From: Bolinopsis microptera
Lineage: Eukaryota; Ctenophora; Tentaculata; Lobata; Bolinopsidae
DNA: 64,000 nt
Direction: 5' to 3'
NCBI RefSeq assembly: GCF_026151205.1
Contig: NC_087079.1
Location: forward strand, 6,234,169-6,298,168
The position numbers and the translations under genes are program-made. The notes under the pieces were generated by a model. The model was given only the letters and a program-made list of their open reading frames with translations. It was not told the DNA's origin and searched no databases. Of the stretch, positions 17,232-57,541 are shown in pieces (position 1 is the first letter of the stretch; every line of letters starts with the position of its first letter).

Positions 17232-17440
17232 TTTTTTTAAACGACTAACTTATCTCTCGTTTTTGTTAATCGTTTAATTATCATTCAACTCGTACACCCC
17301 TTCTCTTTTAAAAGACTCTTCCATTTACAACTACAACTCTGCCAGTGCCATCCCTTTGAATATATTCTGCAGGAACATCAACCTGCCGTATAAATTACAA
17401 GTTTCCAGAACCCGGTCACCGCTACAGCTCTTGACGTTCC

Positions 17441-33449: not shown

Positions 33450-33737
33450 TAAGGCATAAGGAAGCATTGTTGAGTTCTGAAACCAAGTTTAATCGATTTC
33501 TCGTGCAATTTTAGGTCAGGAGTGGTCATCAAAATAAATTTTGAACTAAGTCGATATTTTGGTAAATTTCTAGCTTTCTGCCAGAAAATAAATTTTCGGT
33601 TTCTATAGGGGTTAATTAGGTATAAACTACAGTACAGCTGTACTTACACCCACATTCACAAGCATGCAAGCTCACCTGGTCCAATGAGCGGGAAACGGAG
33701 AACAAGGTCTGGTGACGTCATAGTCACGTGACCTCAG

Positions 33738-34080
33738 GCTCATAACAGTGGCGTAACTTTGCCTGTTGGCGCCCCCCGCTCAGTGACGAAAAGCGCCCCC
33801 CTAAAATTTTTTGTCCCTAAAAAAAAAAAAAAAAAAAAAAAAAAAGGTCGGGTACTTTTTTTCTCGCCCCCCTACAGCTTTTTGCGCCCCCTGAAGCAAG
33901 AAAGGGTACCCCAAATATTTTTTTCGCGTCGACCGAACGCTAAATTGGACAGGGAAATACACAAACAAGGCGTTTTTTCAGTGAAAGGGCCTAAAATTCA
34001 GGAAAATTGCGCCCCCCTTATACGGCGCCCCCCCGCACAGCGGGGTCTGCGGGGCCCTAAGTTACGCCACTGGCTCATAA
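33738..34080. mobile_element. hAT MITE with 8-bp target duplication
   Basis: The element proper spans 33746-34072 (327 bp). It has a 14-bp terminal inverted repeat, CAGTGGCGTAACTT and its complement, and is flanked by GCTCATAA on both sides (33738-33745 and 34073-34080). The CAGTGGCGTA terminus and 8-bp duplication are typical of hAT elements. The interior is rich in gcgcccccc and contains a poly-A run of about 27. It interrupts the right terminal repeat of the Mutator-like element and has no transposase. Confidence 0.93.
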
Positions 34081-34092
34081 TCACGTGACCTC

Positions 34093-34231
34093 AGACCCAA
34101 TTTGACGGATGTTACTCGTCTAAATTTCTTCGAAGTAGCGCGCGCCGCTTTCTTCTCGAAATGGCCCGATGGCAAGTGCTACGAAGTAGCGCGCGCCGGG
34201 CCAGATCATTAACAATGGTCAAAGACCCAAT
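34093..34231. mobile_element. 121-bp micro-element with 9-bp target duplication
   Basis: 34102-34222 is inserted in the right terminal repeat of the Mutator-like element, as shown by comparison with the left one. It begins TTGACGGATGTTA and ends TAACAATGGTCAA (inverted match at TTGACnnnTGTTA), and AGACCCAAT flanks it on both sides (34093-34101, 34223-34231). Inside, acgaagtagcgcgcgccg occurs twice. The 9-bp duplication again suggests Mutator-type mobilisation, possibly by the same enzyme as its host element. Confidence 0.8.
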
Positions 34232-34455
34232 CAATTGGGTTCTGGCCTGTTCAGCCCCCTGTCACCCGATCTTGAGGTGACGTACGACAACTCGTTAACC
34301 CAATCGATGTCTGGAGGGCTGCAAATTTTCACATGCCAAACTCACAACGGTTTTTCGGAGTTGTGCGAGATGACGACACATAGAGGCCGCAGAATTATGA
34401 GGACTACCAGATCCTGGTGGAACCTAAGCGATCCATGATATCACGACAGGCCCTA

Positions 34456-36393: not shown

Positions 36394-39062
36394 CAGCTGG
36401 ACGTTCAGCGGTTCAGTTGATGTCCGGACTACTCCAGCTGGACGTTCAGCGGTTCAGTTAATGTCCGGACTACTCCAGCTTGACGTTCAGCGGTTCAGTT
36501 AATGTCCGGACTACTCCAGCTTGACGTGCAGCGGTTCAGTTAATGTCCGGACTACTCCAGCTTGGCGTTCAGCGGTTCAGTTAATGTCCGGACTACTCCA
36601 ACTTGACGTTCAGCAGTTCAGTTAATGTCCGGACTACTCCAGCTTGACGTTCAGCGGTTCAGTTAATGTCCGGACTACTCCAGCTTGACGTTCAGCGGTT
36701 CAGTTAATGTCCGGACTACTCCAGCTTGACGTTCAGCGGTTCAGTTAATGTACGGACTACTCCAGCTTGACGTTCAGCGGTTCAGTTAATGTCCGGACTA
36801 CTCCAGCTTGACGTTCAGCGGTTCAGTTAATGTCCGGACTACTTCAGCTTGACGTTCAGCGGTTCAGTTAATGTCCGGACTACTCCAGCTTGACGTTTAG
36901 CGGTTCAGTTAATGTCCGGACTACTCCAACTTGACGTTCAGCGGTTCAGTTAATGTCCGGACTACTCCAGCTTGACGTTCAGCGGTTCAGTTAATGTCCG
37001 GACTACTCCAGCTTGACGTTCAGTGGTTCAGTTAATGTCCGGACTACTCCAGCTTGACGTTCAGCGGTTCAGTTAATGTACGGACTACTCCAGCTTGACG
37101 TTCAGCGGTTCAGTTAATGTCCGGACTACTTCAGCTTGACGTTCAGCGGTTCAGTTAATGTCCGGACTACTCCAGCTTGACGTTTAGCGGTTCAGTTAAT
37201 GTCCGGACTACTCCAACTTGACGTTCAGCGGTTCAGTTAATGTCCGGACTACTCCAGCTTGACGTTCAGCGGTTCAGTTAATGTCTGGACTACTCCAGCT
37301 TGACGTTTAGCGGTTCAGTTAATGTCCAGACTACTCCAGCTTGACGTTCAGCGGTTCAGTTAATGTCCGGACTACTCCAGCTTGACGTTCAGCGGTTCAG
37401 TTAATGTCCGGACTACTCCAGCTTGACGTGCAGCGGTTCAGTCAATGTCCAGACTACTCCAGCTTGACGTGCAGCGGTTCAGTCAAAGTCCGGACTACTC
37501 CAGCTTGACGTGCAGCGGTTCAGTCAAAGTCGGACTACTCCAGCTTGACGTGCAGCGGTTCAGTTAATGTCCAGACTACTCCAGCTTGACGTGCAGCGGT
37601 TCAGTCAAAGTCTGGACTACTCCAGCTTGACGTTCAGCGGTTCAGTTAATGTCCGGACTACTCCAGCTTGACGTGCAGCGGTCCGGTTAAGTTAATGTCC
37701 GGACTACTCCAGCTTGACGTTCAGCGGTTCAGTTAATGTTCGGACTACTCCAGCTTGGCGTTCAGCGGTTCAGTTAATGTCCGGACTACTCCAGCTTGAC
37801 GTGCAGCGGTTCAGTCAATGTCCGGACTACTCCAGCTTGACGTTCAGCGGTTCAGTCAATGTCCGGACTACTCCAGCTTGACGTTCAGCGGTTCAGTTAA
37901 TGTCCGGACTACTCCAGCTTGACGTTCAGCGGTTCAGTTAATGTCCGGACTACTCCAGCTTGACGTTCAGCGGTTCAGTTAATGTCCGGACTACTCCAGC
38001 TTGACGTTCAGCGGTTCAGTTAATGTCCAGACTACTCCAGCTTGACGTTCAGCGGTTCAGTTAATGTCCGGACTACTCCAGCTTGACGTGCAGCGGTTCA
38101 GTCAATGTCCGAACTACTCCAGCTTGATGTTCATCGGTTCATTCAATGTCCGGACTACTCCAGGTTGGCGTTCAGCGGTTCAGTTAATGTCCGGACTACT
38201 TCAGCTTGACTTTTAGCGGTTCAGTTAATGTCCAGACTACTCCAGCTTGACGTTCAGCGGTTCAGTTAATGTCCGGACTACTCCAGCTTGACGTTCAGCG
38301 GTTCAGTTAATGTCTGGACTACTCCAGCTTGACGTTCAGCGGTTCAGTTAATGTCCGGACTACTCCAGCTTGACGTGCAGCGGTTCAGTTAATGTCCGGA
38401 CTACTCCAGCTTGGCGTTCAGCGGTTCAGTTAATGTCCGGACTACTCCAGCTTGACGTTCAGCGGTTCAGTTAATGTCCGGACTACTCCAGCTTGACGTG
38501 CAGCGGTTCAGTTAATGTCCGGACTACTCCAGCTTGACGTGCAGCGGTTCAGTTAATGTCCGGACTACTTCAGCTTGACGTGCAGCGGTTCAGTTAATGT
38601 CCGGACTACTCCAGCTTGACGTTCAGCGGTTCAGTTAATGTCCAGACTACTCCAGCTTGACGTTCAGCGGTTCAGTTAATGTCCGGACTACTCCAGCTTG
38701 ACGTTCAGCGGTTCAGTTAATGTCCAGACTACTCCAGCTTGACGTTCAGCGGTTCAGTTAATGTCCGGACTACTCCAGCTTGACGTTCAGCGGTTCAGTT
38801 AATGTCCGGACTACTCCAGCTTGACGTTCAGCGGTTCAGTTAATGTCCGGACTACTCCAGCTTGACGTGCAGCGGTTCAGTTAATGTCCGGACTACTCCA
38901 ACTTGACGTTCAGCGGTTCAGTTAATGTCCGGACCACTCCAGCTTGACGTTCAGCGGTTCAGTTAATGTCCGGACTACTCCAGCTTGACGTTCAGCGGTT
39001 CAGTTAATGTCCGGACTACTTCAACTTGACGTTCAGCGGTTCAGTTAACGTCCGGACGACTT
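36394..39062. repeat. 41-bp minisatellite, about 65 copies (unit 2)
   Basis: Same 41-bp unit as 17441-18464 but 2.6 times longer. A rare variant (tgtacggac) at 36751 and 37079, exactly 328 bp apart, with the same run of neighbouring variants, shows a higher-order repeat of eight units. Copies with gtcaaagt cluster at about 37485-37620. A few copies have indels (about 37680). Confidence 0.97.
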
Positions 39063-40796: not shown

Positions 40797-41730
40797 AGTT
40801 TAAGGTTATAATATTCATTATGCAGGCTATCTTTATGCGAATAATTTGTCCTTGGTCTCAGGAATTGGCTAAATTAGCACTAAATGGACTATTCAAGTCA
40901 TTTGATTTCCCGTTTTATGATGACCACCAATGTTTAGTTAAAAGGATGAAAATTGTATCTTTAAATTTAAAGTAACCCCTGCGCCTTCAGATTCGCAATT
41001 AAAGAAAATTTTCTGAGGTTACTTCTTTGGTTCTCCTATAATGCACTTGTTTTATATGATCTATTGAAAAATATGACGTTAATCATCTAACAAAGGCACG
41101 AAATGACAATTAACATCAATTTACTCCTTTATAATCTAAATTGTCCCCCACATTCACTATTTGAATCTAGCAGATAGTATCTTTAAAGAGAACAGCACCA
41201 GCTGCACTGTTTAGTATCCCAGTCCCTCGGGTCCGCACTTAGCATGTCAAACTAGACATAGCACGTCAACTTTTGTCTACCTCATCCTCCTCTAACATTA
41301 GCATTACTTTGGCCCGCATTGACAGTGACTTTTTCGTCGTTAAATGTTATAATCGATATGGATAAACCGGTGCTAAAGAATCATATAATATAAACTAATT
41401 AAACAGAAAAATTTCGTCATTTTTCAAATTTTTTAATAAACGATTATACGACTAACAATAAAATGTATTATAAACCCATTCTTGATGAGTTATATGATAC
41501 TTGATATTGGAGAAACTCCTAACAGTACCTTAAACCACGATCTGTGACTGTCTCCAATTATCAGTCATGTGGGATCATGATTTCTCTTTATTCTATAATT
41601 TCTAATATACTCCAGCTTGGCATATGAGCATATCTACACTGTGCCAGCGTATTTAGCGTGGAATTGTGAGATTTATATCATAAATCAATGTTGTGGACAT
41701 AGCCGCATTATTATTATTTAAGGTTCGAAT
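40797..41730. other. Non-coding left flank of the Polinton-like element
   Basis: No gene recognised. A B-box-like word (ggttcgaatc at 41722-41731) lies just before the insertion, but no A-box or cloverleaf is present. Confidence 0.5.
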
Positions 41731-41736
41731 CATAAA
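41731..41736. repeat. 6-bp target duplication CATAAA (left)
   Basis: Identical to 55694-55699, outside the palindrome at both ends. Confidence 0.85.
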
Positions 41737-41864
41737 AGTAGTATGACTATGCCGGGCCAGACTCATTTCGAGAACAGTGGATTTCAGGCGGAAATAGGGC
41801 GGTTTGAAAATCTGACATATAAATTTGTGTGTAAAAAAGGGTGTAATTAGTTTCCGGGTTAACC

Positions 41865-42345
41865 CTAGGTAGCTGGATTGAGTGAGCTTTCCGGGTGTGG
41901 TAACCCTAGTCAACCCTAGCTAGAATGGGAATGTATATTCTCAAAATATTTGCTGTATAGTTCCGGGTTATATAGGATATGTGCAGGAAGTGTGGCCTTG
42001 AAATTTATACTAGGTAGCTGGATTGAGTGAGCTTTCCGGGTGTAGTAACCCTAGTCAACCCTAGCTAGAATGGGAAAGTATATTCTCAAAATATTTGCTG
42101 TATAGTTCCGGGTTATATAGGATATATGCAGGAAGTGTGGCCTTGAAATTTATACTAGGTAGCTGGATTGAGTGAGCTGTCCGGGTGTAGTAACCCTAGT
42201 CAACCCTAGCTAGAATGGGAAAGTATATTCTCAAAATATTTGCTGTATAGTTCCGGGTTATATAGGATATATGCAGGAAGTGTGGCCTTGAAATTTATAC
42301 TAGGTAGCTGGATTGAGTGAGCTGTCCGGGTGTAGTAACCCTAGC
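41865..42345. repeat. 145-bp subterminal repeats, left arm
   Basis: Three full copies plus a partial one, starting ctaggtagctggattgagtg at 41865, 42010, 42155 and 42300. They lie about 130 bp inside the element terminus and are mirrored at about 55085-55565. Possible recognition sites for replication, integration or packaging proteins, which is inference only. Confidence 0.93.
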
Positions 42346-42612
42346 AAACTTTAGCTGTGTGCAATTATATTCCTAATAATGTCTGTGCTGTGCTCTAGAT
42401 AAGTAAAATAGTTTCACTTGAAGATATGACTGGCAGTCTGACAAGCCAATCAGGAAGACTAGTCGATATTTTTTCACTCTGGCCCCGGAACTAATTACAT
42501 GAGGACATGACCGGTAGTCTGACAAGCCGATCGGGATATCAATTAACACTTCAATTAACATCCGTGCAGGGTGTTAATTGATACTGGATATTCGGTGCTG
42601 ATAGAGGATGTG

Positions 42613-42620
42613 TTATATAA
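42613..42620 (+). promoter_or_regulatory. Possible TATA box of the zinc-finger ORF
   Basis: ttatataa lies about 115 bp upstream of the first ATG (42732) in the left arm and is mirrored at 54810-54817. It is the best TATA-like match near that ORF, but the AT-rich context weakens it. Confidence 0.3.
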
Positions 42621-42731
42621 ACCAAAAATTTTGCAGTTGACATTATCTATTTGCTAATTTGATTGAATTCGCTGCTTGAATTATCAAATCTTGAAACAAC
42701 CGATTGTCAGATTATTTCCCCTTTGGTCGCT

Positions 42732-43430
42732 ATGACAAAGAGCCCTTGTCATTTCGGTCCTTCTACGGACTTTAAGTTCAGTGGTGAATATGATTCAGCC
42801 CTTGCGGAGGTTTCCAAGTCTATTTGGCGTGCTCGGGATAACTATCCTATTAAAGCACTTTTGACTGTGACTGCCTCGAATGGTAACCGCTATGTGTCCA
42901 GTCCCTTGTACGTTCATCAGTTTAAACAGGAGATGATTGATCTTACCTTGAGGAGTAGTATTGATGCTCAACTGGAGCTTGCCGTGATGGATGCGGCATG
43001 TGTAGGCGTGTTCGATAGAATAGATACTACCTCTTATTATTTAAACCTCAGACAGATAAGGGATCCAGGTCATCAGTGCCCGGTGTGTCAGAAATGGTAT
43101 GTACGGAATTTTAAGAGACATGTGGAAGCATGTGGTAAGGGTAAGTGGTTTACAGTTTGCCTTACTCATCCTGATGATTTGGTGACTCATCGTTTGGTAT
43201 GTGAGGGGGATCTTTTCCCATGTCGGGTATGTAGTTTGTTTTTCCAGAGTCGGGAGCTTAGATTGGAGCATGAGACGATCTGCAGAAGACCTGATAGTAG
43301 CGCGACAGCCAGGAACGTGAGACCTAGAGTGGAGACAAGTGAGACAGCTGAAGAGAGTTCCTTGGGAAACCAGACGGTAACCAGTATCACGGCCATAGAT
43401 GGATTATTTCGTACGGAATATTTTAACTGA
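42732..43430 (+). CDS. Zinc-finger protein of the Polinton-like element, left arm
   Basis: A 232-aa protein from the first ATG; the frame opens at 42663 but without an earlier ATG. Residues 1-110 are unassigned. Residues 116-134 hold CPVC with H130 and C134; 143-157 hold C143, H153 and C157; 164-184 hold CRVC with H180 and C184. These make three C2HC-type finger-like units in a row. Proteins containing this polymerase type often have zinc fingers in the N-terminal part, so this may be the first part of the same broken polymerase gene rather than a separate gene; the intervening 44040-44410 repeats argue that it is now separate. The last residues run into a copy of the 31-bp repeat. DNA binding to the nearby dyad repeats is speculation. 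Confidence 0.6.
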   Translation: MTKSPCHFGPSTDFKFSGEYDSALAEVSKSIWRARDNYPIKALLTVTASNGNRYVSSPLYVHQFKQEMIDLTLRSSIDAQLELAVMDAACVGVFDRIDTTSYYLNLRQIRDPGHQCPVCQKWYVRNFKRHVEACGKGKWFTVCLTHPDDLVTHRLVCEGDLFPCRVCSLFFQSRELRLEHETICRRPDSSATARNVRPRVETSETAEESSLGNQTVTSITAIDGLFRTEYFN

Positions 43431-43700
43431 TAAATTAATTCCGCCGGAATAATTAAAGGTAATTGTGACCATTTTAAAAATCGCACGGAATATTTTAACT
43501 GATAAATTAATTCCGCCGGAATATTTTATCTGATAAATTATTTCCGCCGGAATATTTTAACTGATAAATTAATTCCGCCGGAATATTTTATCTGATAAAT
43601 TAATTCCGCCGGAATATTTTATCTGATAAATTAATTCCGTCGGAATAAACAAAGGTAAATACGATCAGTTAAGAATATTTTATCTAATAAATTATTTCCA
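43425..43700. repeat. 31-bp dyad repeats, cluster A (left arm)
   Basis: About seven copies of a 31-bp unit containing two odd palindromes, TTATC-T-GATAA and TTCCG-C-CGGAA. A few units have paired changes that keep symmetry, such as TTCC-ACA-GGAA. Mirrored at 53730-54005. Confidence 0.9.
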
Positions 43701-43735
43701 CAGGAATAATTAAAGGCAATTGTGAACATTTTAAA

Positions 43736-43850
43736 ATCGCAGAGAATAAAATATAAACAAATTAAAAGTTAAACTGATGCAGTTTTTAAACAAATAAGTT
43801 AATCAACAATCACAAAGCATAACATCTTAAAACTTAAACAAATTCAATAT
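43736..43850 (-). repeat. Inverted copy of the polymerase 3' end segment
   Basis: This stretch is the reverse complement of about 46612-46800 (end of the polymerase gene and its 3' flank), lacking about 60 bp. So each arm contains a smaller inverted repeat around its polymerase gene. Confidence 0.85.
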
Positions 43851-43859
43851 CAAGGAGCT

Positions 43860-44060
43860 TTGAAGAAATCGTTTCCCAGATTGACTGATATTATTGAATA
43901 TAATCATGGAACTGGTATAAAGTTCAATTTGGAATTGAAAGTAAACCTCAGCAAGATGGTCACCGGAGACATCGTAGCTAAAACGTTTGATAGCGAGATG
44001 ATACCATTAGAGATGGGAATGGATAATATTTTATCTAATAAATTATTTCCACAGGAATAA
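43860..44060 (+). pseudogene. Possible fragment of the polymerase N-terminal region
   Basis: A 66-codon frame without ATG at its start encodes KKSFPRLTDIIEYNHGTG and then IKFNLELKV; it resembles, from memory of the family, a segment that lies between the N-terminal fingers and the polymerase domain in related animal proteins. It ends in a 31-bp repeat copy. The assignment is tentative. Mirrored at 53370-53570. Confidence 0.3.
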
Positions 44061-44410
44061 TTAAAGGCAATTGTGAACCTTTTAAAAATCGCTCGGAATA
44101 TTTTAACTGATAAATTAATTCCGCCGGAATAAATAAAGGTAAATGCGAATAGTTGAGAATACTTTATCTAATAAATTAATTCCACAGGAATAATTAAAGG
44201 CAATTGTGAACATTTTAAAAATCGCACGGAATATTTTATCTGACAAATTAATTCCGCCAGAATATTTTATTTGATAAATTAATTCCGCCGGAATATTTTA
44301 TCTGATAAATTAATTCCGCCGGAATATTTTATTTGATAAATTAATTCCGCCGGAATATTTTATCTGATAAATTAATTCCGCCGGAATTAATAAAGGAAAA
44401 TGCGAATAGT
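44040..44410. repeat. 31-bp dyad repeats, cluster B (left arm)
   Basis: About nine copies and variants of the dyad repeat, separated in places by a longer spacer containing aaaggcaattgtgaac. Mirrored at 53020-53390. Confidence 0.9.
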
Positions 44411-44424
44411 TAAGATTATCGCTA

Positions 44425-46625
44425 ATCCAAATTGTGTTATTTGCAAATGTAAACTTATTAAAGATAAACATCTCGATCACTGTCACTACACTGTAAAGTT
44501 TTAGGTTACACTCATCCACCATGCAACCTAGAACGTCAAACACCAAAGTATTTACCCATTTTCTTTCACAATCTTAAAGGATACGACTCACACATGGTTA
44601 TTGGAGGTATTGCAGATCGTGTTGATGATCCTAGGGATATCTATGTTATCGCCAAGGCTATGGAAACATATACAGCATTCAGCACTAAAAAGTTCAGATT
44701 CATTGACTCATGTGCTCACCTCAACTCCTCTCTAGAGAAACTTGTGTCTAATCTTCATTCGTCAGGACCTGTCGAAGACTTCCTTCAGCAGAAGTTTGGT
44801 TCTGTGGAGCCTGAGAAACTGGAGCTTCTTCTTCGCAAAGGGGTGTACTCATACTCCTACTTCAAGACCTTCGAGACCCTTGAGGAGTCTGAACTAACTC
44901 CTATTACGGCTTTCTTCAATGACCTGAACGATGAACCCTGCTCGGAGGAGGACTATGCTCATGTGCAGAAAGTCTGGGAGGTGTTTGGTTTGGAGAGTCT
45001 CGAGGATCTGGTATATCTCTACATAGCCTCTGATGTCCTACTCCTCGACTCAGTGCTACAACAGTATAGGACAGAGTGTATAAATTCTTATGATCTTGAT
45101 CCTGTTCATTATTACACTGCACCAGGTCTAACATGAGATGCAGGATTAAAGTATACTGAGGTAGAGCTAGAATGATTGGATGATCAGGAAATGTATAATT
45201 TTATCGAGCAGGCTATCCGTGGTGGCATTAGCAACATTACTCATCGCTATGCTAAGGCTAACAATCATAATCTTCCAGACTTTGATCCTTCTAAACCTGA
45301 AAGCTACTTTTCCTATATAGACGCAAACAACGTGTACGGATGGGATATGTGTCATGAGAAGCTTCCTATATCGGGCTACAAGTGGCAGAAACCGGGTAAA
45401 CTTCTCACCATCGACGACATCATGGCTTGGGATCCGAATGGTGACGTGGCTTACTTTTTCAAGTGTAATTATTTACAGATATGAAACCCGAGGATCACGA
45501 AAAAATCCAACGATCTACCTCTATTCCCTGAATCTCTGGTGGTACAGGATAGTATGGTATCAAATGCAACTCGTAAGGCAATGGAGAGGAGAGGGGGTAA
45601 ACTCCGTTGATCCTTCTAAGAAGCTTGCTCCAAACCTCTTTCCTAAGATTAAGCATAAGATTCATGTACGTAGCAGCATTGCAGTATTACATTTCAATCA
45701 GCGGTGTTTCTACCAAGATTCATAGAGTTATAGAATTTAAGCGGTCTGATTGGTTAAGGAAGTACATTGCATTTAACGCCAAAAAACGACAGGAGTCTAC
45801 TTCAGAGTTTGGTAAAGCTTTCTTCAAACTACTGAACAATGCCTTCTTCGGGAAGAGTATGGAGTCGGTGAGACTTAGAGTGAACATCAGACTGATACGG
45901 AACGGCAGGCAACATCGCTTTCAGACTAGTAAACCTGGATTCAAGAGGTTTTGCATTTTCTCTGATAAACTGGTTGGACTAGAACTTGTAAAGCCTGTTA
46001 TCGTGTTAGATAAGCCGATTTATTTAGGAGCAGCTATTTTAAACTTGTCAAAATTGTTAATGTATAGATTCTGGTACGATGCCCTCAAGGTTAAATATAG
46101 TAACATTAAATTATGTATTACGGATACAGATAGTTTCTTATATTGGGTTGAAACTGCCGATCTGCATAAAGACTATCAGGATATGGCCAGTCATTTCGGC
46201 ACTAGTATTTACCCTACTGAGCACCCCCTATTTGATTTAACTAACAAGGCAGTACCGGGCTTAGTGAAAGATGAATTTGCGGGTAAGTTTGCCTCTGAGT
46301 TTTGTGGATTAAGAAGTAAATTATATAACTGTAAAGATCATGAAGCTGATGGTAAGATGGCCACAGCAGGGGTTAAACATAAAGTAGCTAGGCGTCACTT
46401 ATTACATGAGAAATATAAAAGTGTTTTGTTCGGTGGAGAGGAAGTGAGGGTTAACCAAACCGCACTAAGAAGTTAAAATCATACAATGTATACTATTAAG
46501 CAGAGGAAATGTACACTTTCTGCCATTGATAATAAGAGATATATTTTACCAGACTTAGTCACCACTAGAGCTTTAAGACATTGCCTTAACCAGCCTGAAC
46601 TAGACTGTGACATTGATTTTGTTTA
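44425..46625 (+). pseudogene. polB: Protein-primed family B DNA polymerase, broken, left arm
   Basis: Replicative polymerase of Polinton-type elements, here disabled. In order: an endonuclease VII-like zinc module (CVIC at 44433-44444, DHCHYT at 44475-44492); an exonuclease motif FHNLKGYD (44564-44587); YIASD, an Exo III-like YxxxD; IRGG and motif A SYIDANNVYG (Asp codon at 45320); motif B KLLNNAFFGK (from 45826); motif C TDTDS (46120-46134); and a thumb-like C-terminus ending at a TAA near 46625. Breaks: a shift between the zinc module and Exo motif (about 44500), in-frame TGA at 45134-45136 and 45173-45175, shifts near 45470-45520, near 45680 and after 46476. All but one base-level difference are shared with the right arm. 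Family B with NNAFFG/TDTDS and no introns is clear; exact clade is not. Confidence 0.88.
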
Positions 46626-46849
46626 AGTTTTAAGATGTTATGCTTTGTGATTGTTGATTAACTTATTTGTTTGTTTTTTTAAATTGTAAAATTTCATAAT
46701 TTTATTAGATTGTATATCATTTCAGCTTTATTTATATGATTTTTAAATTGCATCAGTTTAACTTTTAATTTGTTTATATTTTATTCTCTGCGATTTTGAT
46801 ATGTTCACAATTGCCTTGAATTATTCCTATGGAATTAATTTGTTAGATT

Positions 46850-47275
46850 AAATATTCTCAACTATTCGCATTTACCTAAGTTATTTATTCCGGCGGAATT
46901 AATCTATCAGATAAAATATTCCGGCGGAATTAATTTATCAGATAAAATATTCCGGCGGAATTAATTTATCAGAAAAAATATTCCGGCGGAATTAATTTAT
47001 CAGATAAAATATTCCGTGCGATTTTCAAAATGTTCACAAATACCTTTAATTATTCCTGTGGAATTAATTTATTAGATAAAATATTTTCAACTATTCACAT
47101 TTACCTTTATTTCTTCCGGCGGAATTAATTTATCAGATAAAATATTCCGTGCGATTTTTTAAATGATCACAATTGCCTTTAATTATTCCTGTAGAATTAA
47201 TTTATTAGATAAAATATTTTCAACTATTCAAATTTACCTTTAATTATTCCCGTGAAATTTATTTAACTTATTTCG
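46850..47275. repeat. 31-bp dyad repeats, cluster C (left arm)
   Basis: About ten copies of the dyad repeat in inverted orientation relative to clusters A and B, alternating TTCCGGCGGAA and TTCCTGTGGAA-type cores. Mirrored at 50157-50582. Confidence 0.9.
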
Positions 47276-47463
47276 AGATTTTACTTTAGATTATTTGCAT
47301 AAGGGAGTTAACTAGGAAATTTCCAAACTGTTTCTTTTAAAAACGGTTCTAGACATTGTTGTTTTATTGTATAACAAGAAATACAAATTTTAAGATAATT
47401 GAAAATCAAAATATATAACATCATAAATATTAACGGCAACTAAAAAATATCACATATCAGTCT

Positions 47464-47745
47464 CTAGTACATTGTGTATAAAGTTGACAATGTTCCACAA
47501 CTTTGCCAGGCTGCAATATCGGGGTTATGTGAGATGCCGCACCATGCTGTCGGGAGCTGTTTGGGGAAAGCGTGGCAGGAGATCTCCTGGATGTTATAAA
47601 TGTCCGCATAGGGAAGGATCGTTGTTAGGAATTTGTATGCGACGTGTCCTGCGCAAAATATCTTATAGTTTGCCAGGGAGTAAATGATGCCAATGTGAGA
47701 GTAGTAGTCTAGAGAACCATCTACTAAAAGCGATCTCACTCTAGT
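47464..47745 (-). pseudogene. 91-codon frame of unknown function, left arm
   Basis: An open minus-strand frame with no ATG near its start, so a fragment or exon. It contains VDGSLDYYSHIGIIYS, a Cys/His-rich middle (CAGH) and AWCGISHNPDIAAW near the end. The composition looks protein-like and the frame is preserved in both arms (49687-49968 in the other), but the arms are too alike for that to be evidence of selection. I do not recognise the family. Located where a normal Polinton might have other genes, pointing opposite to the polymerase. Confidence 0.35.
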
Positions 47746-47883
47746 TCAGAATAGGATGGGAACATAGCTGGAAGAGAGACAAAACGCTTACGTACGGGAG
47801 CCAAATCCCAGACAGATAAGTGACGATGTAGCACATATTGGAAAAAGTTAAATAGACTTCAGAATAGGAAATTTAACGAGAGA

Positions 47884-48706
47884 GAAAAGTTTGGTGAAGC
47901 TTTCTTCAAACTTCTGAACAATGCTCTCTTCGGGAAGAGTATGGAGTCGGTGAGGCTTAGAGTGAACATCAGACTGATACGGAACGGTAGGCAACATCGC
48001 TTTCAGACTAGTAAACCTGGAATCAAGAGGATTTGCATTTTCTCTGATAAACTGGTTGGACTAGAACTTGTTAAGCCTGTTATCGTGTTAGATAAACCGA
48101 TTTATTTAGGAGCAGCTATTTAGACTTGACCAAATTGTTAATGTATAGGTTCTGGTACGATGTCCTCAAGGTTAAATATAGTAGCATTAAACTATGTTTT
48201 ACGGATACAGATGGTTTCTTATATTGGGTTGAAACTGCCGATCTGCATAAAGACTATCAGGATATGGCCACTCATTTTGACATTAGTAGTTACCCTACTG
48301 ATCACCCTCTATTTGATTTAACTAACAAGACAGTACCGCGTTTAATGAAAGATGAATTTGCAGGTAAATTTGCCTCTGAGTTTGTAGGATTAAGAAGTAA
48401 ATTATATAGCTGTAAAGTTCATGAAGCTGTTGGTATGATGGCCGCAGCAGGGGTTAAATATAGAGTAGCTAGACGTCACTTATTACATGAGAAATATAAA
48501 AGTGTTTTGTTCGGTGGAGAGGAAGTGAGGGTTAACCAAACCGCACTTAGAAGTTAAAATCATACAATGTATACTATTAAGCAGAGGAAATGTGCACTTT
48601 CTGCCATTGATAATAAGAGATATATTTTGCCAGATTTAGTTACCACTAGAGCTTTAAGACATTGCCTTAACCAGCCTGAACTAGACTGTGACATTGATTT
48701 TGTTTA
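47884..48706 (+). pseudogene. polB: Third, diverged polymerase 3' end in the central loop
   Basis: Starts abruptly inside motif B (KFGEAFFKLLNNALFGK) exactly where the left arm ends, and continues through motif C, here TDTDG rather than TDTDS, and the thumb-like C-terminus. It differs from the arm copies by many substitutions, with a stop and frameshift near 48121. So the loop contains a second, older lineage of the same gene segment in tandem with the left arm's copy (offset about 2.08 kb). Not functional. Confidence 0.85.
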
Positions 48707-48889
48707 AGTTTTAAGATGTTATGCTTTGTGATTGTTGATTAACTTATTTGTTTGTTTTTTAAATTGTAAAATTTCATAATTTTATTACATTGTATATCAT
48801 TTCAGCTTTATTTATAAGATTTTTAAACTGCATCAGTTTATCCTTTAATTTGTTTATATTTTATTCTCTGCGATTTTGAAATGTTCACA

Positions 48890-49205
48890 ATTGCTTTTAA
48901 TTATTCCTGTGGAATTACTTTATTAGATTAAATATTCTCAACTATTCGTATTTACCTTTATTTATTCCTGTGGAATTAATTTATCAGATAAAATATTCCG
49001 TGCGATTTTTTAAAATGATCACAATTGCCTTTAATTATTCCTGTAGAATTAATTTATTAGATAAAATATTCTCAACTATTCCACAAAGAATCATTGATAA
49101 TGTCAAATAAATGCAAGAAACTTGATTTGTTTCGTTTAATATAAATTCTCAACTATTCCACAAAGAATCATTGATAATGTCAAATAAATGCAAGAAACTT
49201 AATTT
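48890..49205. repeat. 31-bp dyad repeats and a 61-bp tandem pair in the loop
   Basis: About four dyad repeat copies (48890-49080), then ctcaactattccacaaagaat followed by about 40 more bases, repeated in tandem (about 49072 and 49146), leading into the stop codon of the 129-aa ORF. Confidence 0.8.
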
Positions 49206-49538
49206 GTTTCGTTTAATATAAATCCTAACCTTATTTACAAGTGACTTAACCATAGTGCGTTCATCCTCTGATAAAGCTATGCGTTGAGGTTGTGTGATTG
49301 GAATAACCCCATAAGTTAATTCTAGAAATAGACGCCGTAAATCATCAATATGTTTTCTGTTGGAAAGTATCCTTGAAAGTTTTCCATCTTCAATCAGAGT
49401 CCTAATCTCATTAAACTGAGTGATAGTTACACTGTTGATAACTGCCTGATTTATTTTGGTCATAGCTACATCTCCATCAACGGTCAAATCATTAAGCTGT
49501 TCCTCTATTTTTGAAAACATGTCAAACTGTTTTTTCAT
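49149..49538 (-). CDS. 129-aa ORF in the central loop, unknown
   Basis: Runs from a true ATG at 49536-49538, two bases inside the loop, to a stop at 49149. The protein is predicted helical and mixed-charge, with a Lys/Arg-rich C-terminal half (MVKSLVNKVRIYIKRNKL). The only unbroken ATG-started frame unique to the loop. I do not recognise it. Since the start abuts the arm boundary, the true N-terminus may have been cut off by the rearrangement: the frame upstream in the right arm is open for only a few codons. Candidate for a truncated structural or accessory Polinton gene, with little support. Confidence 0.4.
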   Translation of the reverse strand: MKKQFDMFSKIEEQLNDLTVDGDVAMTKINQAVINSVTITQFNEIRTLIEDGKLSRILSNRKHIDDLRRLFLELTYGVIPITQPQRIALSEDERTMVKSLVNKVRIYIKRNKLSFLHLFDIINDSLWNS

Positions 49539-49686
49539 AAAACTTTTCCCTCTCGTTAAATTTCCTATTCTGAAGTCTATTTAACTTTTTCCAATATGTG
49601 CTACTTCGTCACTTATCTGTCTGGGATTTGGCTCCCGTACGTAAGCGTTTTGTCTCTCTTCCAGCTATGTTCCCATCCTATTCTGA

Positions 49687-49968
49687 ACTAGAGTGAGATC
49701 GCTTTTAGTAGATGGTTCTCTAGACTACTACTCTCACATTGGCATCATTTACTCCCTGGCAAACTATAAGATATTTTGCGCAGGACACGTCGCATACAAA
49801 TTCCTAACAACGATCCTTCCCTATGCGGACATTTATAACATCCAGGAGATCTCCTGCCACGCTTTCCCCAAACAGCTCCCGACAGCATGGTGCGGCATCT
49901 CACATAACCCCGATATTGCAGCCTGGCAAAGTTGTGGAACATTGTCAACTTTATACACAATGTACTAG
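49687..49968 (+). pseudogene. 91-codon frame of unknown function, right arm
   Basis: Mirror copy of 47464-47745 with the same sequence features: no ATG near the start, VDGSLDYYSHIGIIYS and AWCGISHNPDIAAW. Directed outward from the centre. Confidence 0.35.
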
Positions 49969-50156
49969 AGACTGATATGTGATATTTTTTAGTTGCCGTT
50001 AATATTTATGATGTTATATATTTTGATTTTCAATTATCTTAAAATTTGTATTTCTTGTTATACAATAAAACAACAATGTCTAGAACCGTTTTTAAAAGAA
50101 ACAGTTTGGAAATTTCCTAGTTAACTCCCTTATGCAAATAATCTAAAGTAAAATCT

Positions 50157-50582
50157 CGAAATAAGTTAAATAAATTTCACGGGAATAATTAAAGGTAAAT
50201 GTGAATAGTTGAAAATATTTTATCTAATAAATTAATTCTACAGGAATAATTAAAGGCAATTGTGATCATTTAAAAAATCGCACGGAATATTTTATCTGAT
50301 AAATTAATTCCGCCGGAAGAAATAAAGGTAAATGTGAATAGTTGAAAATATTTTATCTAATAAATTAATTCCACAGGAATAATTAAAGGTATTTGTGAAC
50401 ATTTTGAAAATCGCACGGAATATTTTATCTGATAAATTAATTCCGCCGGAATATTTTTTCTGATAAATTAATTCCGCCGGAATATTTTATCTGATAAATT
50501 AATTCCGCCGGAATATTTTATCTGATAGATTAATTCCGCCGGAATAAATAACTTAGGTAAATGCGAATAGTTGAGAATATTT
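50157..50582. repeat. 31-bp dyad repeats, cluster C' (right arm)
   Basis: Mirror of 46850-47275. Confidence 0.9.
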
Positions 50583-50805
50583 AATCTAACAAATTAATTC
50601 CATAGGAATAATTCAAGGCAATTGTGAACATATCAAAATCGCAGAGAATAAAATATAAACAAATTAAAAGTTAAACTGATGCAATTTAAAAATCATATAA
50701 ATAAAGCTGAAATGATATACAATCTAATAAAATTATGAAATTTTACAATTTAAAAAACAAACAAATAAGTTAATCAACAATCACAAAGCATAACATCTTA
50801 AAACT

Positions 50806-53005
50806 TAAACAAAATCAATGTCACAGTCTAGTTCAGGCTGGTTAAGGCAATGTCTTAAAGCTCTAGTGGTGACTAAGTCTGGTAAAATATATCTCTTATT
50901 ATCAATGGCAGAAAGTGTACATTTCCTCTGCTTAATAGTATACATTGTATGATTTTAACTTCTTAGTGCGGTTTGGTTAACCCTCACTTCCTCTCCACCG
51001 AACAAAACACTTTTATATTTCTCATGTAATAAGTGACGCCTAGCTACTTTATGTTTAACCCCTGCTGTGGCCATCTTACCATCAGCTTCATGATCTTTAC
51101 AGTTATATAATTTACTTCTTAATCCACAAAACTCAGAGGCAAACTTACCCGCAAATTCATCTTTCACTAAGCCCGGTACTGCCTTGTTAGTTAAATCAAA
51201 TAGGGGGTGCTCAGTAGGGTAAATACTAGTGCCGAAATGACTGGCCATATCCTGATAGTCTTTATGCAGATCGGCAGTTTCAACCCAATATAAGAAACTA
51301 TCTGTATCCGTAATACATAATTTAATGTTACTATATTTAACCTTGAGGGCATCGTACCAGAATCTATACATTAACAATTTTGACAAGTTTAAAATAGCTG
51401 CTCCTAAATAAATCGGCTTATCTAACACGATAACAGGCTTTACAAGTTCTAGTCCAACCAGTTTATCAGAGAAAATGCAAAACCTCTTGAATCCAGGTTT
51501 ACTAGTCTGAAAGCGATGTTGCCTGCCGTTCCGTATCAGTCTGATGTTCACTCTAAGTCTCACCGACTCCATACTCTTCCCGAAGAAGGCATTGTTCAGT
51601 AGTTTGAAGAAAGCTTTACCAAACTCTGAAGTAGACTCCTGTCGTTTTTTGGCGTTAAATGCAATGTACTTCCTTAACCAATCAGACCGCTTAAATTCTA
51701 TAACTCTATGAATCTTGGTAGAAACACCGCTGATTGAAATGTAATACTGCAATGCTGCTACGTACATGAATCTTATGCTTAATCTTAGGAAAGAGGTTTG
51801 GAGCAAGCTTCTTAGAAGGATCAACGGAGTTTACCCCCTCTCCTCTCCATTGCCTTACGAGTTGCATTTGATACCATACTATCCTGTACCACCAGAGATT
51901 CAGGGAATAGAGGTAGATCGTTGAATTTTTTCGTGATCCTCGGGTTTCATATCTGTAATAATTACACTTGAAAAAGTAAGCCACGTCACCATTCGGATCC
52001 CAAGCCATGATGTCGTCGATGGTGAGAAGTTTACCCGGTTTCTGCCACTTGTAGCCCGATATAGGAAGCTTCTCATGACACATATCCCATCCGTACACGT
52101 TGTTTGCGTCTATATAGGAAAAGTAGCTTTCAGGTTTAGAAGGATCAAAGTCTGGAAGATTATGATTGTTAGCCTTAGCATAGCGATGAGTAATGTTGCT
52201 AATGCCACCACGGATAGCCTGCTCGATAAAATTATACATTTCCTGATCATCCAATCATTCTAGCTCTACCTCAGTATACTTTAATCCTGCATCTCATGTT
52301 AGACCTGGTGCAGTGTAATAATGAACAGGATCAAGATCATAAGAATTTATACACTCTGTCCTATACTGTTGTAGCACTGAGTCGAGGAGTAGGACATCAG
52401 AGGCTATGTAGAGATATACCAGATCCTCGAGACTCTCCAAACCAAACACCTCCCAGACTTTCTGCACATGAGCATAGTCCTCCTCCGAGCAGGGTTCATC
52501 GTTCAGGTCATTGAAGAAAGCCGTAATAGGAGTTAGTTCAGACTCCTCAAGGGTCTCGAAGGTCTTGAAGTAGGAGTATGAGTACACCCCTTTGCGAAGA
52601 AGAAGCTCCAGTTTCTCAGGCTCCACAGAACCAAACTTCTGCTGAAGGAAGTCTTCGACAGGTCCTGACGAATGAAGATTAGACACAAGTTTCTCTAGAG
52701 AGGAGTTGAGGTGAGCACATGAGTCAATGAATCTGAACTTTTTAGTGCTGAATGCTGTATATGTTTCCATAGCCTTGGCGATAACATAGATATCCCTAGG
52801 ATCATCAACACGATCTGCAATACCTCCAATAACCATGTGTGAGTCGTATCCTTTAAGATTGTGAAAGAAAATGGGTAAATACTTTGGTGTTTGACGTTCT
52901 AGGTTGCATGGTGGATGAGTGTAACCTAAAACTTTACAGTGTAGTGACAGTGATCGAGATGTTTATCTTTAATAAGTTTACATTTGCAAATAACACAATT
53001 TGGAT
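50806..53005 (-). pseudogene. polB: Protein-primed family B DNA polymerase, broken, right arm
   Basis: Mirror copy of the left-arm gene with the same motifs (zinc module, FHNLKGYD, YIASD, IDANNVYG, LLNNAFFGK, TDTDS) and the same lesions, including both in-frame TGA codons (52294-52296 and 52255-52257). It differs by lacking one T near 51955, which shifts the frame after the motif A region differently from the left arm, and by one Pro/Ser codon difference at about 51923. Also not functional. Transcription would run from the outer end toward the centre, convergent with the left-arm copy. Confidence 0.88.
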
Positions 53006-53019
53006 TAGCGATAATCTTA

Positions 53020-53390
53020 ACTATTCGCATTTTCCTTTATTAATTCCGGCGGAATTAATTTATCAGATAAAATATTCCGGCGGAATTAATTTATCAAATA
53101 AAATATTCCGGCGGAATTAATTTATCAGATAAAATATTCCGGCGGAATTAATTTATCAAATAAAATATTCTGGCGGAATTAATTTGTCAGATAAAATATT
53201 CCGTGCGATTTTTAAAATGTTCACAATTGCCTTTAATTATTCCTGTGGAATTAATTTATTAGATAAAGTATTCTCAACTATTCGCATTTACCTTTATTTA
53301 TTCCGGCGGAATTAATTTATCAGTTAAAATATTCCGAGCGATTTTTAAAAGGTTCACAATTGCCTTTAATTATTCCTGTGGAAATAATTT
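53020..53390. repeat. 31-bp dyad repeats, cluster B' (right arm)
   Basis: Mirror of 44040-44410. Confidence 0.9.
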
Positions 53391-53570
53391 ATTAGATAAA
53401 ATATTATCCATTCCCATCTCTAATGGTATCATCTCGCTATCAAACGTTTTAGCTACGATGTCTCCGGTGACCATCTTGCTGAGGTTTACTTTCAATTCCA
53501 AATTGAACTTTATACCAGTTCCATGATTATATTCAATAATATCAGTCAATCTGGGAAACGATTTCTTCAA
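53370..53570 (-). pseudogene. Possible polymerase N-terminal fragment, right arm
   Basis: Mirror of 43860-44060, identical frame; same tentative interpretation. Confidence 0.3.
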
Positions 53571-53579
53571 AGCTCCTTG

Positions 53580-53694
53580 ATATTGAATTTGTTTAAGTTT
53601 TAAGATGTTATGCTTTGTGATTGTTGATTAACTTATTTGTTTAAAAACTGCATCAGTTTAACTTTTAATTTGTTTATATTTTATTCTCTGCGAT
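53580..53694 (+). repeat. Inverted copy of the polymerase 3' end segment, right arm
   Basis: Mirror of 43736-43850; inverted relative to 50630-50818. Confidence 0.85.
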
Positions 53695-53729
53695 TTTAAA
53701 ATGTTCACAATTGCCTTTAATTATTCCTG

Positions 53730-54005
53730 TGGAAATAATTTATTAGATAAAATATTCTTAACTGATCGTATTTACCTTTGTTTATTCCGACGGAATTAAT
53801 TTATCAGATAAAATATTCCGGCGGAATTAATTTATCAGATAAAATATTCCGGCGGAATTAATTTATCAGTTAAAATATTCCGGCGGAAATAATTTATCAG
53901 ATAAAATATTCCGGCGGAATTAATTTATCAGTTAAAATATTCCGTGCGATTTTTAAAATGGTCACAATTACCTTTAATTATTCCGGCGGAATTAATTTAT
54001 CAGTT
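53730..54005. repeat. 31-bp dyad repeats, cluster A' (right arm)
   Basis: Mirror of 43425-43700. Confidence 0.9.
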
Positions 54006-54698
54006 AAAATATTCCGTACGAAATAATCCATCTATGGCCGTGATACTGGTTACCGTCTGGTTTCCCAAGGAACTCTCTTCAGCTGTCTCACTTGTCTCCA
54101 CTCTAGGTCTCACGTTCCTGGCTGTCGCGCTACTATCAGGTCTTCTGCAGATCGTCTCATGCTCCAATCTAAGCTCCCGACTCTGGAAAAACAAACTACA
54201 TACCCGACATGGGAAAAGATCCCCCTCACATACCAAACGATGAGTCACCAAATCATCAGGATGAGTAAGGCAAACTGTAAACCACTTACCCTTACCACAT
54301 GCTTCCACATGTCTCTTAAAATTCCGTACATACCATTTCTGACACACCGGGCACTGATGACCTGGATCCCTTATCTGTCTGAGGTTTAAATAATAAGAGG
54401 TAGTATCTATTCTATCGAACACGCCTACACATGCCGCATCCATCACGGCAAGCTCCAGTTGAGCATCAATACTACTCCTCAAGGTAAGATCAATCATCTC
54501 CTGTTTAAACTGATGAACGTACAAGGGACTGGACACATAGCGGTTACCATTCGAGGCAGTCACAGTCAAAAGTGCTTTAATAGGATAGTTATCCCGAGCA
54601 CGCCAAATAGACTTGGAAACCTCCGCAAGGGCTGAATCATATTCACCACTGAACTTAAAGTCCGTAGAAGGACCGAAATGACAAGGGCTCTTTGTCAT
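54000..54698 (-). CDS. Zinc-finger protein of the Polinton-like element, right arm
   Basis: Identical 232-aa frame to the left-arm ORF, from the ATG at 54698. The three C2HC-like units are unchanged. A TATA-like word lies at 54810-54817. See 42732-43430 for residue positions. This is the only sizeable unbroken frame in the arms, so it is the part most likely still able to make a protein, from two divergent-facing copies. Confidence 0.6.
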   Translation of the reverse strand: MTKSPCHFGPSTDFKFSGEYDSALAEVSKSIWRARDNYPIKALLTVTASNGNRYVSSPLYVHQFKQEMIDLTLRSSIDAQLELAVMDAACVGVFDRIDTTSYYLNLRQIRDPGHQCPVCQKWYVRNFKRHVEACGKGKWFTVCLTHPDDLVTHRLVCEGDLFPCRVCSLFFQSRELRLEHETICRRPDSSATARNVRPRVETSETAEESSLGNQTVTSITAIDGLFRTEYFN

Positions 54699-55084
54699 AG
54701 CGACCAAAGGGGAAATAATCTGACAATCGGTTGTTTCAAGATTTGATAATTCAAGCAGCGAATTCAATCAAATTAGCAAATAGATAATGTCAACTGCAAA
54801 ATTTTTGGTTTATATAACACATCCTCTATCAGCACCGAATATCCAGTATCAATTAACACCCTGCACGGATGTTAATTGAAGTGTTAATTGATATCCCGAT
54901 CGGCTTGTCAGACTACCGGTCATGTCCTCATGTAATTAGTTCCGGGGCCAGAGTGAAAAAATATCGACTAGTCTTCCTGATTGGCTTGTCAGACTGCCAG
55001 TCATATCTTCAAGTGAAACTATTTTACTTATCTAGAGCACAGCACAGACATTATTAGGAATATAATTGCACACAGCTAAAGTTT

Positions 55085-55565
55085 GCTAGGGTTACTACAC
55101 CCGGACAGCTCACTCAATCCAGCTACCTAGTATAAATTTCAAGGCCACACTTCCTGCATATATCCTATATAACCCGGAACTATACAGCAAATATTTTGAG
55201 AATATACTTTCCCATTCTAGCTAGGGTTGACTAGGGTTACTACACCCGGACAGCTCACTCAATCCAGCTACCTAGTATAAATTTCAAGGCCACACTTCCT
55301 GCATATATCCTATATAACCCGGAACTATACAGCAAATATTTTGAGAATATACTTTCCCATTCTAGCTAGGGTTGACTAGGGTTACTACACCCGGAAAGCT
55401 CACTCAATCCAGCTACCTAGTATAAATTTCAAGGCCACACTTCCTGCACATATCCTATATAACCCGGAACTATACAGCAAATATTTTGAGAATATACATT
55501 CCCATTCTAGCTAGGGTTGACTAGGGTTACCACACCCGGAAAGCTCACTCAATCCAGCTACCTAG
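55085..55565. repeat. 145-bp subterminal repeats, right arm
   Basis: Mirror of 41865-42345. Confidence 0.93.
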
Positions 55566-55693
55566 GGTTAACCAGGAAACTAATTACACCCTTTTTTACA
55601 CACAAATTTATATGTCAGATTTTCAAACCGCCCTATTTCCGCCTGAAATCCACTGTTCTCGAAATGAGTCTGGCCCGGCATAGTCATACTACT

Positions 55694-55699
55694 CATAAA
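55694..55699. repeat. 6-bp target duplication CATAAA (right)
   Basis: Partner of 41731-41736. Confidence 0.85.
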
Positions 55700-57541
55700 G
55701 TTCACAAATGCTATAATACTAAGTTTGAATAAATTACTTATATTTATTATCGATTATCACTACGCACTAAAGATAAGATGACACTGCATATAATTATTGC
55801 TGAGAGTAACGTAGCCCGGTAGCCTGTTGCACCTGTGCCACGAGATCCTTTCACTAAGATGCAGACTGTGGTTCCTTCAACAAATTCTTCGCAGCACATT
55901 TTTGTGCCAACGGTTATTTTTCAGTGCCAAGAATCGCTGGAATTGCCAGCATATTGTTATGGCACCTGGCTCCAAGAAAAGTGAAATGTTTGGGTTCAAG
56001 AAAAGTGAAATGTTTGGGTTCAAGAAAAGTGAAATGTTTCCCTCACAACTCACGAACTGTTCATCTAGAATTGTTTTTAATTCTCCATATTATTATCTTA
56101 TTATGGAGCCACCGGCTACACCTGGTTAAAACTTAAAACGCTTCCATCCCATTACATAATACTGGATATTACAATTCCCTCCAGCCTCTCTAGGGTTGTT
56201 AGATGTACTTTATCCAGATATTCACTAACATTGGTCACATCCTTCATTGCAACAGGTAGTTGATACGGCCAGTTGCTGGTTGGTGGTACCAAATTAGGGT
56301 TTTAAAAACCGCTGCAGCGATTATTATTAGTGATAGATGTGCAATATCCGATGACGTCATGATTTAACGTGACGTCAGAATTTAACGTGACGTCAGAATT
56401 TAACGTCAGTTCAACCGTCACGCTTGTAAATCGTAACAGATGTTGAATGAAGCGTCTTTGAAGTTACCAGACCCATTGTTCAACTTGCCAATTAGTTTTG
56501 TAGGCGAGGTATTAGGCTCATCTCTACGAATATGACGGTTTAAGCCCCAAATTCAATTGCTTTTGAAGCTTTAGAGTTTCCAAATTTGAGTCGTTCTACA
56601 GCTAGGTTCTGTATTTGTTGTTCTCGTCTCTTCCGTTTTAGTAAAACTGGAATTTTTCATGATTTTGGGTCATGACTCCATCATTGTTTGGAATTAAGAT
56701 TTTGTTGAAGGTATGTCTTACTCTCTCAGCTATAAAGGATCACTTATGCCTAATGACTATGGTCATTAATGGTCACTTATGGTACTATTAAGGTACGAAC
56801 GTCTAGTCTCATCGTGTATTTTCGTACCATTTTGACACTCAAATATTGGAACATGTTCATCATATATTGCATATTGTTTTTTCATGTTTCAATCAACGAA
56901 CAAACTAAAAAATGCACTAGATTAGGAATATGGCTGCTTTAAACGAGATACAATTGCAATATGATGCCACGGAATGGTTAGTTAAAGGCATAAGTGTCTG
57001 AAATAAAGGTTAAGCGTTTAAGAAATAACCTTCTCTGTTTAATGTTTAAGTGACTCACCTCCTTACTCAGTTTATTTGTCTAAAAAGCGCCATTTTTTGC
57101 CTAATATAGCCAACATATAACATGACGAGCAAGTAGGATGACGTCACAACACATGCCCAAATATGGGCATCAAAAGCTCTTCGTACAGGAGAGTTCCAAT
57201 GTTGCTGACAGTTACCAATTGTTTCTATTCATGATTATCCGGCTAGTTTTCTAAACAGTTCACAGCTGGCACCAAGAGCTGTTTAACTTTAACATCCAGG
57301 TGCTTCTAATATGTTATACTTAACCGTTTTTATCTCGCAGTCACATCTAATAGCTTTCCTTTGTTACTCCTAGGAACAGTTTGTTTTGGTGTTGGGGACG
57401 TCGATCACAAGAAAGTAAGAAAAAACAATGAAATTTGAAAAGCACGCACAACATTTCCTCATTTCCAAAGTAGTACTTTAGTGTGCCGACTAATAAAGTA
57501 GTTAGGTTGTGTTGCTGTATTTAGTATAAGTAGAGGGCTCC
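55700..57541. other. Non-coding right flank with short tandem repeats
   Basis: No gene recognised. A 24-bp unit (gtgaaatgtttgggttcaag) is repeated about three times at 55979-56040, and a 20-bp unit containing gtgacgtcagaatttaac is repeated at about 56360-56406. Small frames here are featureless. Confidence 0.45.

Follow-up and report, generated by a model that had tools for sequence, protein, structure and literature searches.

Polintons (Mavericks) have 5'-AG...CT-3' ends and make 6-bp target duplications, and the protein-primed adenovirus and derivatives of yeast pGKL1 form symmetric defective genomes, in which one end is duplicated in mirror image. Here we analyze a 64,000-nucleotide stretch of the ctenophore Bolinopsis microptera, hereafter the window (contig NC_087079.1; C8:6234169-6298168 in the searched genome of 264.65 Mb and 232 contigs), which contains a 13,957-bp palindromic element at positions 41737-55693, together with similar elements of the same genome. 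These elements resemble Polintons in their AG...CT ends, their 6-bp duplications and their family-B polymerase with a DNA_pol_B_2 domain, but they are built as two mirrored halves where Polintons have a single linear set of genes, and they measure 4.4-15.3 kb; no integrase was found in the frames scanned, and no Pox_A32 ATPase was matched in the genome. With the adenovirus and pGKL1 genomes they share an end mirrored about a centre and two authentic ends, whereas they differ in being chromosomal, in having members with a common centre, and in the polymerase of one family (F2), which is open and constrained.

Other systems are related more loosely. In origin-dependent inverted-repeat amplification (ODIRA) of yeast, strand joining at short inverted repeats, a proposal tested in steps, lets a nascent strand turn back and gives palindromic molecules (PMC4689423), but it concerns chromosomal segments with an origin and not a transposon with its own ends. 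Bidnaviruses have a Polinton-derived polymerase, inverted terminal repeats (PMC4061559) and a genome on two molecules (PMC3036147), which recalls the two-part arrangement considered below, but they are single-stranded DNA viruses with a capsid, and no report of palindromic segments was found for them. Among the best matches in the openly licensed literature (CC0, CC BY, CC BY-SA), no excerpt describes a palindromic Polinton-type element.

The window element begins with AGTAGTATG, and both of its ends, read inward, are AGTAGTATGACTATGCC. In gapped alignment, two mirrored arms surround a loop and are 99.886% identical over 6,156 columns, with five mismatches and two one-base gaps, and the left and right flanks are dissimilar outside CATAAA. 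The alignment confirms the arms, loop, AG start, CATAAA on both sides and coordinates proposed in the initial annotation of this DNA; a wider palindrome, 41708-55722, reaching past CATAAA, was rejected as an ungapped over-extension, the gapped alignment ending at 41737/55693. The parts are:

41731..41736, + strand: left target-site duplication CATAAA, read from the sequence
41737..47892, + strand: left arm, starting AGTAGTATGACTATGCC, 99.886% identical to the right arm
47893..49539, no strand: loop, 1,647 bp, 98.3-98.5% identical to the loop of the C1 palindrome
49540..55693, - strand: right arm, from the gapped alignment
55694..55699, + strand: right target-site duplication CATAAA, in direct orientation, read from the sequence

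We consider it probable, from what follows, that the window contains a single inserted member of a genomic family of mobile palindromes, a linear, end-copied element that became symmetric by strand switching at its centre. A search with the window end gave 19 matches, headed by both ends of the window element and a pair of inverted ends on C1 that delimits a second palindrome (C1:3701454-3715105). There the two arms match at 98.8% over 6,029 columns, the left one is 99.15% identical to the window arm over 5,890 columns, and the loop is the same as that of the window element. The end pattern of this family (family 1) occurs at eight sites in the genome, compared to two matches for a reversed control pattern. 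A non-mirrored relative starts at C11:19579946 and was followed past a 100-N assembly gap, no right end being found, and an older linear relative with short inverted ends lies at C9:2024566-2038358. The initial annotation had suggested looking for a full-length relative with integrase; linear relatives do exist, but the frames scanned in them gave no integrase. The window is colinear with the C11 relative in blocks, the longer of which are about 92-96% identical (87% for 47727-47892). The right border of the loop continues into the arm as in the C11 relative, and the left border joins parts of that relative about 3.9 kb apart with five shared bases, a junction that fits strand switching.

Two further family-1 candidates, C6:9801400 and C2:11336166, were rejected as palindromes, being degenerate or single-ended. 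Inside or beside the degenerate C6 element is a RING-finger frame (L018:4719-5237), and C2:11341666-11343498 is a 1.8-kb self-inverted stretch at 82%, either an old palindrome or a repeat array. The old C9 relative contains an inverted repeat of at least 1.68 kb at 99.94% (C9:2029819-2035017), whose right copy is overlapped by a Penelope-like frame with weak reverse-transcriptase and GIY-YIG matches, below cut-offs. Within C1:3709111-3715105, 21 of the 33 single-base gaps are bases absent from the right arm, which suggests poor polishing inside palindromes.

A second family, F2, has an end pattern with 19 sites in the genome and none in the control. The F2 form is found at 14 of these sites, which make seven inverted pairs of 7.7-15.3 kb, and the remaining five are one C10 pair of another end type and three single sites; linear F2 elements were looked for and not found. 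In C7:6690411-6705670 the mirror symmetry runs through the centre, in C12:15097586-15106053 (8,468 bp) it extends over the whole length at 99.46%, and C11:6783760-6791428 (7,669 bp) has arms at 99.59% around a 283-bp loop. The polymerase arms are 99.36% alike in C9a (on C9 at 0.66 Mb) and 99.81% in C9b (at 6.6 Mb). C13:13624197-13632401 is a shortened, unequal member, and the positions of centre sequence in C5:18059736-18070047 point to a palindrome, one arm of which has received an insertion of about 2.9 kb. The C7 centre recurs, inverted about the middle, in six elements (C5, C7, C9a, C9b, C11 and C12), of which C7, C11 and C12 were read across and the other three were placed by position only. 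Around this centre the arms differ in content: C7 and the two C9 palindromes carry a polymerase gene in both arms, while C12 and C11 carry a zinc-finger-like gene (Pfam zf-C2H2, E about 0.035, below cut-off), and the two kinds of arm meet the centre at different points. The zinc-finger-like gene is reversed in orientation in C11, where its frame is open (316 aa) and identical in both arms; in C12 the right-arm frame is open (308 aa) and the left one is split in two.

At one side of the F2 centre, about 260-305 bp more are missing in four of the six palindromes, C7 and C12 being nearly perfect. These losses resemble deletions described for mouse cells, where small losses break the symmetry of palindromes and stabilise them (PMC8701086). 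Elements of another family, F4, also contain about 730 bp of the F2 centre as inverted pairs, so that an inserted inverted repeat may have supplied the switching point.

Exact 6-bp duplications flank eight of the nine elements checked (a count that covers these nine and leaves the older linear relatives outside it), namely CATAAA in the window, TACTTG at C7, CTTGTT at C9b, GACGTC at C9a, TCTTAG at C13, CTGACC at C12, GACAAC at C11 and GTGAAT at C4, with C1 as the exception; GACGTC is its own reverse complement, so direct and inverted orientation cannot be told apart there. Further AG...CT copies with different loops and 6-bp duplications, which the initial annotation had proposed to search for, are present in the genome among the F2 and F4 elements. 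Its proposal that the palindrome existed before integration and was inserted as a unit is borne out by the direct duplication, by the second copy with the same loop and by other palindromes with their own duplications. On C13, the F2 element is inserted in one arm of an F5 palindrome, and the other arm is the empty site, with the six target bases present once. Such a filled and empty pair of arms is hard to produce by assembly error. Palindromes are difficult to assemble and the C1 right arm appears unpolished, but hairpin or chimeric reads that mirrored a single arm would have mirrored the flanks as well, whereas here the flanks are unlike and eight of nine elements have 6-bp duplications. 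With the C1 copy and the C13 empty site added to the dissimilar flanks and direct duplications, we rejected an assembly mirror, which we regard as extremely improbable.

The F4 pattern has ten end sites (none in the control) forming four pairs. One of them, C4:10998705-11003072, consists of 2.0-kb arms, 98.96% alike, around a 332-bp loop and is flanked by the duplication GTGAAT, and the other three have an inverted piece at matching distances from both ends. F5 has 23 end sites (none in the control) and ten pairs; its outer palindrome on C13 was read in part, and C13:16155574-16160488 shows overlapping inverted matches about its middle. Most F4 and F5 elements are known by their positions only. 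The four end types all start with AGTAGTAT. Separately, an F4-type palindrome whose right side is cut short (C11:19575433-19579522) adjoins the linear family-1 relative at 19579946 on its left, and its arms each carry a like frame (256 aa) with no Pfam match.

These features also bear on another reading, which we find very unlikely here: a DNA transposon of foldback type whose long inverted ends are repetitive inside and which captured polymerase fragments. The AG ends and 6-bp duplications fit Polinton-type integration according to the rule given at the outset, both gene types are open in F2 arms (in C12 the right copy only), and the frames scanned gave no transposase match, the P-element type included (no genome-wide search for it was made). 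What speaks for such a transposon is that the arms are long and contain tandem repeats, much as in Galileo and Foldback, and autonomous copies of Galileo carry a P-element-type transposase (PMC3573991).

We then consider how the arms change. The seven F2 polymerase arms, aligned over 4,229 columns, differ within an element at 1, 4 and 7 sites and between elements at 11-59 (0.02-0.17% versus 0.26-1.42%); C9a and C9b account for 7 and 4 substitutions, respectively, gaps excluded. Changes common to both arms of one element number 34 in C9a, 5 in C9b and 4 in C7, a single two-state site conflicts with arm pairing and one site is multi-state, and a tree pairs the two arms of each F2 polymerase palindrome as sisters. 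All of this looks like an inherited, mobile palindromic form whose arms evolve together. The main rival for arm identity is gene conversion after insertion, in which the arms are very long terminal repeats kept alike by arm-to-arm exchange in the chromosome while the palindrome still moves. The 1-7 differences within elements against 11-59 between them agree with it, and gene conversion is reported to keep palindrome arms more than 99% alike (PMC8981503); palindromes of mammalian sex chromosomes are the model for this rival. By itself, however, it leaves unexplained the common centre of palindromes with polymerase and zinc-finger-like arms, in which both arms have been exchanged at two borders, and we judge it somewhat unlikely as the full explanation.

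In all seven polymerase arms a frame remains open over 1,184 codons, and dN/dS is 0.17-0.29 in five of six comparisons among the left arms of four elements, whose lineages overlap and which carry no significance test. The C12 and C11 zinc-finger-like frames differ by two synonymous and two non-synonymous changes, too few to judge. Since C7 and both C9 elements have a common centre, the polymerase changes most simply accrued in a palindromic lineage. The initial annotation had explained the window element as a snap-back product integrated as a unit. The mirrored terminal half with two authentic ends expected of a snap-back is observed in the window, C1, F2 and F4 elements; integration of a pre-existing palindrome is supported and strand switching fits, but a single rare product does not look likely, given F2 palindromes with one centre and an open, constrained polymerase. 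On the initial model, every palindrome would have arisen separately from a linear Polinton-like parent as a dead-end snap-back and been caught by integration once. This model can point to the linear relatives (C11:19579946 onwards and C9:2024566-2038358) and to the broken window polymerase, yet we consider it improbable because C8 and C1 have the same loop, six F2 palindromes have one centre and the F2 polymerase is constrained.

The preferred reading, a mobile palindrome family, would work as follows. The element would live for a time as a linear molecule, end-copied by its own or a relative's family-B polymerase. During copying, a strand would change template close to the middle, where an inverted repeat or a short homology allows it, and copy back, giving a product with one half twice and two authentic ends. 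Further copying of this symmetric molecule could follow, and an integrase acting in trans would insert it, producing the 6-bp duplication. As each strand is self-complementary, fold-back or repeated switching would erase arm differences, and a change in one arm would soon be in both. The dead polymerase in both window arms suggests that this copy moved with help from elsewhere or has decayed since.

Several points weigh against this reading. Arm identity by itself could be explained by chromosomal gene conversion, and no extrachromosomal form or movement was observed. The window family has only two palindromic loci (C8 and C1), with the polymerase broken in both, and its sites at C2, C6, C9 (two) and C11 are linear, degenerate or single-ended. 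At C1, no clear 6-bp duplication was found, and of the 35 gaps that separate the two arms 33 involve one base only, so that part of this arm difference is perhaps sequencing error. The limits of the dN/dS comparisons given above count here as well, as does the sixth comparison (C7-C9b), with no synonymous and four non-synonymous changes, and the possible exchange of arms around the centre means that some constraint may have accrued outside the palindrome. Finally, no rve match was obtained in the frames scanned, which include those of linear relatives but not every frame, and none of 150 scored rve matches in the genome (from 394 candidates) is inside the 27 mapped intervals, the nearest being about 62 kb away; an integrase weaker than these 150 could lie below the list, and the linear C11 relative has an assembly gap.

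The DNA_pol_B_2 profile (PF03175) was matched above cut-off by the C11 relative's frame and by the polymerase part of the C7 and both C9 frames. For C7, scanning all 1,184 aa of the frame at once gave Endonuclease_7 only, and its polymerase part alone gave DNA_pol_B_2. Endonuclease_7 is also above cut-off in the C11 relative. The polymerase NNLYG and DTD columns are invariant in 48 sequences, and of 8,000 sequences scored against the C11 polymerase frame, 4,656 are relatives at E<=0.001; among the best 120 of them, the eight with an organism name come from molluscs, corals, a sea anemone and a sponge. This polymerase had no match among viral contigs, and the element polymerase had none in the PDB by sequence. 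A further C11 frame (19586832-19587482) has 28 relatives, none with a name. No capsid match was found in the frames scanned (no capsid profile search of the genome was made), and the packaging ATPase profile PF04665 (Pox_A32) gave no genome match at E<=0.001 with two candidates scored; two of 14 control genomes matched it, and its sensitivity for Polinton ATPases is not established. Polinton-type ends with an exact 6-bp duplication are found in eight of the nine elements checked, the window element among them, C1 lacking the duplication. A Polinton or adintovirus identity, as proposed initially, is unproven: ends, duplications and polymerase family agree with Polintons, and the scanned frames yielded no integrase. 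Every Polinton is described as carrying genes for a protein-primed polymerase and a retrovirus-type integrase (PMC4642659), and as neither integrase nor Pox_A32 was matched, we do not file these elements as Polintons; they appear to work like a helper-dependent Polinton relative.

We tentatively hypothesize, at odds below even, that F2 is a two-part genome, with the polymerase and zinc-finger-like palindromes as complementing segments that have their ends and a palindromic centre in common; copy-back replication at this centre would keep each segment symmetric. A self-symmetrising bipartite transposon would, if real, represent a novel lifestyle among self-synthesizing elements and would illustrate a route from one linear genome to two complementary segments. 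Long perfect palindromes are usually unstable, and here they appear as the transmitted form of a mobile element. If this holds, the elements would offer natural evidence for a linear, end-copied stage of Polinton-type elements and a series of palindromes suited to tracing deletions at the centre.

The genes and repeats inside the window element are listed below.

41865..42344, + strand: subterminal array of the left arm, 145-bp unit x 3.3
42663..43430, + strand: zinc-finger-like open frame of 255 aa, left arm (Pfam zf_C2H2_6, E 0.0064, below cut-off)
43486-43647 and 44227-44387, left arm, mirrored in the right arm: arrays related to the minisatellites at 46886-47265
44421..46672, + strand: left-arm gene for a family-B DNA polymerase, broken, 95% to C11:19583037-19585290
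46886..47265, + strand: 31-bp and 61/133-bp minisatellites downstream of the polymerase, left arm, with a mirrored counterpart in the right arm
47888..47892, + strand: 5-bp overlap joining two distant parts of the linear relative, a putative template-switch scar
47888..48753, + strand: partial extra copy of the polymerase 3' part, in the loop
49149..49580, - strand: 143-aa frame, a fragment of a gene open over 362 aa at C11:19587902-19588990
50759..53009, - strand: right-arm gene for a family-B DNA polymerase, likewise broken, its limits set by symmetry with 44421-46672
54000..54767, - strand: right-arm copy of the 255-aa zinc-finger-like frame, from the frame list
55086..55565, - strand: subterminal array of the right arm, 145-bp unit x 3.3

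A polymerase gene is present in each arm, as initially annotated, but it is not open: in both arms it is split across several frames with stops, compared to the open 859-aa C11 frame. Both window arms and the left arm of C1 contain two TGA codons inside the profile match, and two polymerase stops are common to all four arms of the window and C1 palindromes, although some of the other stops may represent alignment run-on past a frame change. This common damage is older than the split of the two copies. One piece of the window polymerase is just below the PF03175 cut-off. The loop is not unique sequence; it includes the partial polymerase 3' part and the fragment of a second element gene.

Elsewhere in the window, arrays of a 41-bp unit lie about 18 kb apart at 17438-18463 (25 copies) and 36394-39061 (65 copies), and the 5-bp unit AGACG is repeated about 132 times at 975-1637. 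Shorter inverted repeats of 233, 149 and 121 bp, 96-100% identical and 8.7-9.8 kb apart, at 24206-24744 / 33449-34455, are possibly the ends of another element.

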